Assembly: GCA_017561825.1 (NCBI GenBank)
Contig: JAFZBK010000002.1
Location: forward strand, 31,934 to 95,933
Length of the DNA: 64,000 nucleotides
DNA from: Prevotella sp.
Lineage (GTDB): Bacteria > Bacteroidota > Bacteroidia > Bacteroidales > Bacteroidaceae
Direction: 5' to 3'
Below are positions 26,576 through 62,065 of this stretch, one piece after another. The first letter of the stretch is position 1. The number at the start of each line of letters is the position of its first letter. Both the position numbers and the translations under genes were made by a program. The notes beneath the pieces are model-generated. The model did not search any database. It saw nothing but the letters and a program-made list of their open reading frames with translations, and was not told the origin of the DNA.

Positions 26576-26587
26576 AAAAAAGTAGAT

Positions 26588-27042
26588 TTTACCTACATAA
26601 CTACATGGTTTCATTATAACCAACTATAACACAACGGATTACAAACCTTCTACCTACATGCAAACTACATGGAAACTACATATAACTACATGCAAACTAC
26701 ATGGTTTGATGGGTATAAACGACCTAAATCATGGTGTTCTCGATAAGTATCTTAGTCGTTTGCTATGAAATTCTCTAGAGAATTTACGAGTTAGAATACA
26801 TCTTTCTACCAGTAAGTAGCCTGCTTGTGCACAAATTCTCTAGAGAATTTATGTAAGAGTGACGTTGTGACTGTCAGAAAGTGACGTACTTTCTACCTCT
26901 TAGTGCCACAGTTTCTATGGTTTTATACGGCAATTTGTGGCAAAACATGTAGGTAGCATGTAGTTATATGTAGTTTCCATGTAGTTTCAAATTCTCGTAA
27001 CATATTGAGGAATAGTAAAATAATGTAAAACATGTAGGTAAA
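26588..27042. repeat. Non-coding inverted-repeat element 1 (about 455 bases) with CTACATG arms and palindromic core
   Basis: No gene lies between 26521 and 27115. The outer arms are tandem units of about 11 bases built on CTACATG, for example AAACTACATGG. A 32-base arm at 26662-26693 is perfectly complementary to 26956-26987, and an outer 11-base pair lies at 26588-26598 and 27032-27042. The core holds AAATTCTCTAGAGAATTT twice (26768-26785 and 26833-26850, 65 bases apart) and the palindrome AGAAAGT-5-ACTTTCT (26876-26894). A diverged second copy is at 61399-61866. No open frame or terminal target duplication was noticed. Confidence 0.9.
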
Positions 27043-27105: not shown

Positions 27106-27115
27106 CGTAACGAAG

Positions 27116-27512
27116 TGGAGCTGGAGGGAGTCGAACCCTCGTCCGAACAAGGAAACCATACGCTTTCTACACGCTTATCTTAGACTTTGGTTTTCGTGCT
27201 GCAGCAAGACCTAAGCCACCAACTACAGCCTTAGCTCCTAAATTTCACCCCTGCATCGGAGCCTACAGAGGCTATTTCCGATTTAACCTGCGCCGCTTGA
27301 TCTTTGGATTCGGAACAACATCCTCGGAGCGACGTCTCGTTTCTCCGCCTAGCAGAGAAATTAAGCTAGCAATCTACTGTACTTCGATTAAGCAGCGAGA
27401 GCATACTCATTGTTGCCAATTAATTTTTTGAGAACTCAGATTTAGGAGGGAACCCTCGAGCCTCCGCGTGCTTACGTACCATCTCATCTCGCCGTCAAAT
27501 CCAGTCAACCCC
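27116..27512 (-). ncRNA. ssrA: Transfer-messenger RNA (tmRNA)
   Basis: tmRNA frees stalled ribosomes and tags the unfinished protein. On the minus strand the 5' end GGGGTTGACTGGATTTGAC pairs with the 3' end CAGCTCC plus discriminator A, and the T arm GGGTTCGACTCCC is present. The tag frame at 27388-27417 reads GGC AAC AAT GAG TAT GCT CTC GCT GCT TAA, coding GNNEYALAA, close to known Bacteroidetes tags ending YALAA. The final CCA is not encoded. The length of 397 bases is normal for a one-piece tmRNA. Confidence 0.95.
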
Positions 27513-60934: not shown

Positions 60935-60984
60935 ACAGGGTGCGAAGGTACGAAGAATCTTTCGTTTTACCAAAAAAATGTTCC

Positions 60985-61085
60985 CAATGTGGGAATATCG
61001 AGTAAGAAGCCTAGTTGCTCTGAGAAAGTAGCCTAGTTTGAGGCAGTAATCAGCCTAGTTACTATGAGAAAGTAGCCTAGTTTCT
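60985..61085. repeat. AGCCTAGTT direct repeats upstream of the symporter gene
   Basis: AGCCTAGTT occurs four times (about 61007, 61029, 61051 and 61074), two of them preceded by GAGAAAGT. The related sequence AAGTAGCCTGCTT stands inside inverted-repeat element 1 at about 26814. The copies lie beside element 2 and may be a decayed piece of the same repeat family. Confidence 0.6.
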
Positions 61086-61133
61086 TCCTGGATTATTTCT
61101 CCGCTAAACTCTCTAATTCTCTGTAAACTAAAA

Positions 61134-61221
61134 AGATGATGGCGGAGAAATTGTGGCGCTTACATTCGACACACTTGGAGGCTTTATTCACCTCTGAATG
61201 AAAGAATTCCTCCGCCATCAT
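61134..61221. repeat. Inverted repeat around GATGATGGCGGAG
   Basis: ATGATGGCGGAG (from 61135) pairs with CTCCGCCATCAT (about 61210-61221) around a loop of about 60 bases. No T run follows. It lies in the 1.3-kb gap without genes between the symporter and the BspA-like fragment (61037-62322). Confidence 0.6.
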
Positions 61222-61339
61222 ATTTCTGACATATAGATAGTTAAAGGACTTAGCGGAGTAATAATAGAAAGAATCAGTTTTCTTATATTAACGATCTCCC
61301 CACCTCTTCATTGTTGGTGCGGTTTTCATTCACCCCTCC

Positions 61340-62065
61340 TCTTTGGAGGTGCTGGGGGTGGCTCCTTCTTCTCTATGGTGACTTTGCCCTTTTCCTGATT
61401 ATCTCCTACTAAACTCAATATAAGCATCAGTGATACTGGTATTTATATCATTTTTATTCCCTACTAAATCCCCTACTAACTCCCTACTTATTCACTACTA
61501 ATCTCCTACTAAAACATTATACATTAAAGATGCAAGATGTGGCACTTTCTCATAGTAAATGCGGCACCTACTGCCAAATTCTCACGAGAATTTATGAGTT
61601 AGAACGCTTCTTTCCACCAGTAACTGCGTCACTTTCTCACAAATTCTCGAGAAAATTACAGAGCAACTGCAACAACAACGAATTGGAATCGCCTAAGGCA
61701 TGAACTCAGATAAACGCTTTTGGTCACTCCTTTGTCGTATTCTTTCGCAAATTAGTAGAGGATAGGTAGGGAGTTTGTAGGGGATAAGTAGGGGATTTAG
61801 TAGGAGAAGAATTTGAGCTATAGCACTTACTACCAATATTATACGCCATATTTAGTAGGAGATAATTCAAACATCAGTTTGTCTTGCCAAATCAATGTGA
61901 TCAACATGCCTAAAGAAGTGCTTTTCAATTATCATTTAGGTGCAAGCCATTTGGTTGGTGCGGTATTAATTATTAATTTTTATTTTTTCATTTTTCATTT
62001 GGCGTCAGCCATTGGGCTGGGGGTGGCTCCTTCTTCTTTTCTTGGAGGGACTGGGGTGGCTCCTT
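61340..62065 (+). repeat. Dispersed CTGGGGGTGGCTCCTTCTT repeats
   Basis: CTGGGGGTGGCTCCTTCTT occurs at about 61351 and 62017, and the related CTGGGGTGGCTCCTT at about 62050. Each long copy is preceded by TTGGTGCGGT within about 80 bases. The copies flank element 2. No coding function is seen; this looks like a repeat family scattered in intergenic DNA. Confidence 0.6.
61399..61866. repeat. Non-coding inverted-repeat element 2 (468 bases) with CTACTAA arms and palindromic core
   Basis: The outer arms ATTATCTCCTACTAAA (61399-61414) and its complement (61851-61866) are perfect. A 17-base inner pair is at 61461-61477 and 61788-61804. The arms are tandem units of 10-12 bases with CTACTAA in place of the CTACATG of element 1. 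The core has AAATTCTCACGAGAATTT (61576-61593) and AAATTCTCGAGAAAATT (61641-61657), again 65 bases apart, and the 47 bases between are clearly alike in both elements (GAGTTAGAA and CCAGTAA shared). Confidence 0.9.

Follow-up and report, generated by a model that had tools for sequence, protein, structure and literature searches.

Gene-less copies of a candidate VirE initiator site in the intergenic regions of a Prevotella genome

A 64,000-nt stretch of a Prevotella sp. draft genome (contig JAFZBK010000002.1; hereafter the window) carries two intergenic elements, E1 (26587-27041) and E2 (61398-61866, about 470 bases), in which arrays of a short motif face each other across a pair of palindromes. 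We conclude that they are probably iteron-like initiator sites, related to an origin-operator that lies upstream of VirE genes and is accompanied by gene-less satellites, E1 and E2 among them. VirE is used here as a label for BT4734/BF3469-family proteins, which have a primase-like N-terminal domain, a VapE-like helicase and a predicted C-terminal winged helix, and element copies without a gene are called orphans. The architecture, the linkage to VirE, the covariation of arms and VirE C-terminus, the matching of orphans to resident genes, and the lower divergence of arms and palindromes were all computed. Arms of CTACATG, CTACTAA and CATACAC are referred to as type 1, type 2 and the third type; L, C and G numbers denote loci, contigs of the window's genome and genomes, respectively, the window's own genome being G000 (2.98 Mb in 69 contigs, an 88% complete draft). 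No description of the element itself was found in the literature searched, the coverage of which did not extend to subscription papers.

Elements of the E1/E2 type lie upstream of VirE genes

A first-pass annotation of the window had described E2 as the layout of E1 with a different arm motif, with 65 nt between palindrome starts in both, similar bases between the palindromes and arms that are complementary within each copy. All of these points held up, the shared layout far beyond what shuffled sequences gave (Table 1). In E2, CTACTAA occurs five times forward on the left and three times reversed on the right, a score matched by 0 of 500 dinucleotide shuffles, and a far inverted repeat as long as the longest one observed (18 nt) appeared in 0 of 300. 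For the 47 bases between the palindromes, the best of 1000 shuffles reached 23 identities between E1 and E2, compared with the 32 observed.

When open reading frames (ORFs) around 147 palindrome loci were clustered (two locus sources that overlap in genomes, so that pairs are not independent), the top families were VirE (up to 730 aa, 34 loci), with the Pfam domains BT4734-like_N and VapE-like, and a small HU neighbor with the domain HU-HIG (26 loci). On contig C61 of G000, HU and VirE adjoin a type-1 element. Among VirE genes fetched by protein similarity at ≥60% identity, the AATTCTC palindrome pair was present upstream in 21 of 34 (16 of 28 evenly drawn, plus 5 of 6 whose genomes had been selected by their pair), and wherever found it begins at -277 to -468 from the VirE start. 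Inverted heptamer arrays, defined as having no misoriented copy and a score of ≥8, with 10 shuffles per locus as control, were found at 45 of 50 VirE genes at ≥58% identity (32 of 36 of those fetched by protein) and at 59 of 80 loci over all identity classes. Gene-less copies are common, since 89 of 118 genomic contig stretches show no VirE within 800 bp, 34 of them ending too soon to judge, while 29 do.

The only PDB sequence match of VirE was 7pds. The C-terminus of VirE is predicted as a winged helix, and the helicase core was modeled poorly. In domain scans, matches to PHROGs DNA helicase/primase families and to PADLOC PrimPol, and one to NCBIfam PrimPol_Db below the cut-off, agree with VirE being a replication protein. 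BT4734-like proteins are described as an archaeo-eukaryotic primase (AEP) family outside the main clades, AEP primases having the motifs hhhDhD/E and sxH (accessible text of PMC5862659). A defense system appears unlikely, PADLOC models having matched only the primase part of VirE (PrimPol, 3.6e-34; RTasVirE-PriCT2, 6.6e-13) and HU gave no match. Many of these genomes hold several copies of BT4734/VapE-type genes, for which no described function was found in the literature searched. G000 also has two VirE 3' halves, L272 (C27) and L273 (C7), which are 95% identical over 595 nt, with no similarity beyond the stop codon; the gene that follows is priA-like for one and tsf-like for the other (names by eye), and VirE near priA was also seen in one Bacteroides record.

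The position of the element could also reflect a transcriptional operator only, by which VirE or a partner would bind its own upstream region and control itself and HU, with orphans as drifting decoys. At 16 of the 28 informative loci (≥58% identity, fetched by protein), HU and VirE are indeed divergent, with the element between them, and four loci (L241, L243, L250, and L268) have an extra palindrome-like site toward HU. We nevertheless consider this unlikely, since two large inverted arrays with a 65-nt core of fixed spacing make an elaborate design for such a role, and HU was not found at the other 12 loci. To our knowledge, a primase-helicase would also be unusual as a repressor. HU as an obligatory partner was rejected on those 12 loci together with all 11 informative loci at 40 to 50% identity, where it was not found within 1.3 kb upstream.

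Arm motifs follow the VirE C-terminus and orphans match resident genes

Arm motifs tracked the VirE C-terminus better than other parts of the protein. Orphans, in turn, tended to carry the motif of a gene in their own genome. For type 1, 7 of 7 scored orphans had their best match, out of 40 VirE arm profiles, in the arms of the resident C61 VirE. For the CATACAC orphan L072, the best profile was that of L299 in G203, a relative of the two truncated resident VirE genes; this VirE is collinear with the truncated C27 copy (86.9% over 2.1 kb), and over its last 55 residues it has 2 differences from each of the C7 and C27 copies. L070, with CATACAC on its left side, gave no arm profile. Three other genomes, G034 (30 pairs), G132 (15), and G175 (21), were sampled at 10, 6, and 4 places, one of them gene-linked in each, and the resident VirE motif was found in 16 of the 17 orphans sampled (9/9, 5/5, and 2/3, respectively).

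The joint change of the two arms had initially been read as compensatory change or arm-to-arm conversion, implying that pairing is probably important. This explanation was not supported by a comparison of left arms with reverse-complemented right arms, in which matching was practically equal within and between elements of one type: a mean of 42.6 within versus 42.4 between for eight type-1 elements (one gene-linked), and 40.0 versus 40.25 for four type-2 elements with unevenly cut arm boundaries. Arm-to-arm conversion was rejected on these scores, and inter-motif spacers are unlike between the two arms of a single element. A structural RNA or DNA cruciform, whose arms would pair and be kept by compensatory change, is very improbable: although the arms are long inverted repeats, there is no within-element excess of matching, the array is mainly one-sided in most sampled G034 and G132 elements, and no Rfam 15 family was found at E1 or E2 at gathering score (the only matches in the window being a tmRNA at 27113-27512 and one tRNA). 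RNA structure was rejected on the Rfam scan and the arm-match scores. Co-change of the arms would be better explained by a DNA-binding protein than by base pairing, because the arms covary with the C-terminal part of VirE, a predicted winged helix.

Copies in the genome and the genus

Further copies, as anticipated in the first-pass annotation, were found. Both arms change together by type without a change in palindrome spacing, and one genome can hold several types. G000 has 19 palindrome-bearing loci with three clear arm types. Type 1 accounts for 11 loci (possibly 10, since three are cut by contig ends), one of them gene-linked, and type 2 for four (E2, L064, L066, and L073); CATACAC arms were seen by eye at two, on both sides of L072 and on the left of L070, and two palindrome loci without arms adjoin another hairpin unit. 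Arms matched each other within copies except in the half-elements L059, L061, and L070, which have one palindrome and incomplete arms. L060 (C23) has a triple core, with three palindromes at 65-nt steps. Several copies sit close to contig ends (C1, C31, C35, C59, C62, and C65), so the repeats probably break assemblies and are under-counted.

The palindrome-pair pattern (starts 50 to 80 nt apart) had exact matches in 79 of 398 genus genomes, with 0 for the reversed control among the matches listed. Although 50 to 80 nt was allowed, the 148 neighboring pairs at the 147 loci were spaced by 65 nt (133), 64 nt (10), or 66 nt (5), and one additional distance of 130 nt represents a triple. Titles among the 80 matches listed were Prevotella, Xylanibacter, Prevotellaceae, Bacteroidaceae, Bacteroidales, and uncultured bacterium, many with ruminant hosts. 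The cores, in contrast to their spacing, are genome-specific in sequence. For 74 cores of 65-nt spacing from these 80 matches, mean similarity was 0.753 within a genome (53 pairs) versus 0.376 between genomes (2648 pairs), and in 30 of 43 cases the nearest core belonged to the same genome (shuffled mean, 1.5; maximum, 8). Among nine type-1 copies, divergence was lowest in the arms (0 to 0.053) and in the palindromes (0.025 to 0.037, a figure biased by the copies having been located via the palindrome), compared with 0.083 to 0.197 in the linkers, 0.081 in the bricks right of palindrome 2, and 0.207 between the palindromes. The inter-palindrome segment of E1 (26786-26832) is atypical for type 1 and by eye closer to type-2 cores, which suggests core exchange between arm types.

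Multiple copies of this kind could belong to an ordinary family of miniature inverted-repeat transposable elements (MITEs), with arms that would serve, terminally and subterminally, as sites for the transposase of a transposon not seen here, and with VirE adjacency a matter of chance or insertion preference. Consistent with this, no ORF of ≥110 aa overlaps the 12 G000 elements checked, and the ends are sharp near the outer arms. The flanking regions checked in the two closest relatives, G118 and G203, also lack the element, with no palindrome pair found by the rpsO-like, ion-channel-like, and outer-membrane-like genes (names by eye) or the tmRNA; no clean empty site could be defined, because the left and right flanks do not adjoin in these genomes (in G203, those of E1 are separated by about 6 kb). 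One three-locus ORF cluster beside the pairs resembles, by eye, putative transposases of the PD-(D/E)XK (Rpn) family; apart from it, no insertion sequence (IS) transposase was seen by eye in the 40 largest ORF clusters of the 147 loci, and an autonomous transposase was rejected. A MITE family nevertheless appears unlikely, given the fixed place upstream of VirE, the covariation of the arms with the VirE C-terminus, and VirE and HU as the commonest ORF families. Seven copies share flank words of 4 to 9 nt, with no consistent target duplication among them, and the flanks in relatives are not contiguous.

Porphyromonas gingivalis is a related bacterium of the same order. Its BrickBuilt MITE, as far as the accessible text of the source goes, is similarly intergenic, with 19 copies in one strain and 23-nt bricks between inverted ends of IS5 type (GAGACCTTTGCA), whereas the elements here have 22-nt bricks, palindromes at fixed spacing, and a link to a Rep-like gene (PMC4596501). 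A BrickBuilt/IS5 MITE was rejected on its ends, as the fragments GAGACC, TGCAAAGG, CCTTTGCA, ACGTCA, and TCGAACT were absent in and around E1 and E2. A phage or plasmid origin was rejected as well: the exact pair occurs in one viral contig, with no VirE or HU match there, and none of the VirE relatives in phage (515) or plasmid (102) records reaches 60% identity.

Relation to known initiator-origin systems

The closest described system is Rep/ori of the Staphylococcus aureus pathogenicity islands (SaPIs; PriRep1, PDB 7pds; SCCmec Cch2), in which, in the accessible text of the source, a primase/helicase initiator with a C-terminal DNA-binding domain has clustered short repeats beside its gene, and the repeat motif tracks the Rep C-terminal domain (PMC7581432). 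VirE resembles it in the VapE-like helicase core, the predicted winged helix, the sequence and fold match to 7pds, and the adjoining site (for E1 and E2 only in trans), and in short-repeat clusters at the 45 of 50 close genes, with a motif tracking the C-terminus. We do not class the element as a SaPI origin, because the site is upstream, the arms are inverted around a fixed 65-nt palindrome core, the center is not more AT-rich than the arms, and there are many orphans. Further differences are that no integrase or island gene was recognized by eye in 14 kb at C61 and that a replication role is here inferred.

In the interpretation we favor, E1 and E2 are gene-less copies of the cis-acting region found just upstream of VirE genes. 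The CTACATG, CTACTAA, and CATACAC arrays would act as iterons to which the cognate VirE binds through its winged helix; each side has a single outer site plus a cluster spaced at roughly one helical turn, and the two sides are inverted relative to each other. A second layer would consist of the palindromes, with their 65-nt spacing, and the 22-nt bricks located between the arms; in it, spacing is kept and sequence is genome-specific. The analogy with SaPI Rep/ori makes the whole most likely a replication origin plus operator on which VirE may load as two oppositely facing oligomers; we infer DNA binding at the arms, initiation of replication, and movement of orphans. A resident VirE would be able to address orphans, E1 and E2 among them, in trans, the fast-changing arms serving as an address label read by initiator-like proteins. 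More tentatively, such elements may form a satellite class of gene-less origin-like units spread through the chromosome and recognized in trans by resident BT4734-VapE primase-helicases, arms and winged helix co-diversifying so that each initiator has a private set. A readable, diversifying address in many copies makes it testable which protein reads which repeat and, by the same test, whether reading starts replication, controls genes, or mobilizes DNA; it also offers naturally occurring pairs of winged-helix sequence and DNA motif.

Several observations weigh against the initiator-site interpretation. Covariation of arms and C-terminus is partly shared ancestry, and windows within residues 1-100 and 261-360 also gave partial correlations with the arms of 0.32 to 0.41. 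No VirE was found for the CTACTAA arms of E2 in the 88% complete draft, the best cosine among 40 VirE loci being 0.43, and none of the four type-2 copies had a close VirE arm profile (best, 0.31 to 0.45). One of the three sampled G175 orphans lacks the resident motif, and the gene-linked arms of G132 are degenerate, as judged by eye. Thirteen of the 34 close VirE genes are without the AATTCTC pair, having arms around other bricks (by eye) and in one case an N run, and inverted arrays were found at only 7 of 15 VirE genes at 40 to 50% identity. One of 10 shuffles reached a score of 8 at 6 of the 80 loci, and two of the 45 close loci score exactly 8. The 7-mer scan found nothing at four Bacteroides/Parabacteroides loci from plasmid-collection records; these have genes of the same annotated BT4734/BF3469 family, with HU adjoining in two of four, but arrays could be made out there only by eye, at two of the three upstream sequences read. 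The fold match of VirE to 7pds is only moderately above background. SaPI-type iteron origins have an AT-rich segment between iteron sets, whereas here AT content between the arrays is 0.60 versus 0.64 to 0.69 in the arms for E2, and 0.62 versus 0.67 to 0.72 for E1. The SaPI site also lies directly downstream of rep. The primase motifs of VirE residues 84-196 (LVVLExN and SVK) look non-canonical by eye beside the AEP motifs (PMC5862659, accessible text).

Features of E1 and E2 and adjoining repeats

Table 1. Features of E2 and E1 in window coordinates
Feature	Position	Strand	Remark
E2 left outer arm ATTATCTCCTACTAAA, one CTACTAAA site	61398..61413	+	16 nt fully complementary to 61851-61866
E2 left inner array, CCCTACTAA-type sites, ~11-nt period	~61456..61513	+	CTACTAA-type
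E2 palindrome 1 AAATTCTCACGAGAATTT	61576..61593	.	64-66 nt spacing family-wide
E2 inter-palindrome core, ~22-nt bricks	61594..61640	.	32/47 identical to E1
E2 palindrome 2, imperfect, AAATTCTCGAGAAAATTA	61641..61658	.	
E2 right inner array, inverted	~61751..61807	-	
E2 right outer arm	61851..61866	-	complement of left outer arm
E1 left outer arm	26587..26607	+	zero divergence over 26590-26607 among type-1 copies compared
E1 left inner array, CTACATG	26651..26704	+	
E1 palindrome 1 AAATTCTCTAGAGAATTT	26768..26785	.	
E1 palindrome 2	26833..26850	.	starts 65 nt after palindrome 1
E1 right inner array	26942..26987	-	arms 26662-26708 / 26941-26987 94% complementary
E1 right outer arm	27028..27041	-	

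Directly left of E2, at 60975-61270, lies a separate unit composed of a 22-nt brick array (AGAAAGTAGCCTAGTT) and an imperfect hairpin (ATTTCTCCGCTAA...TTAGCGGAGTAAT), which was also seen in L059, L061, and the right half of L070. A GCTGGGGGTGGCTCCTTCTTCT-type repeat occurs on both flanks of E2, at 61351, 62016, and 62049.
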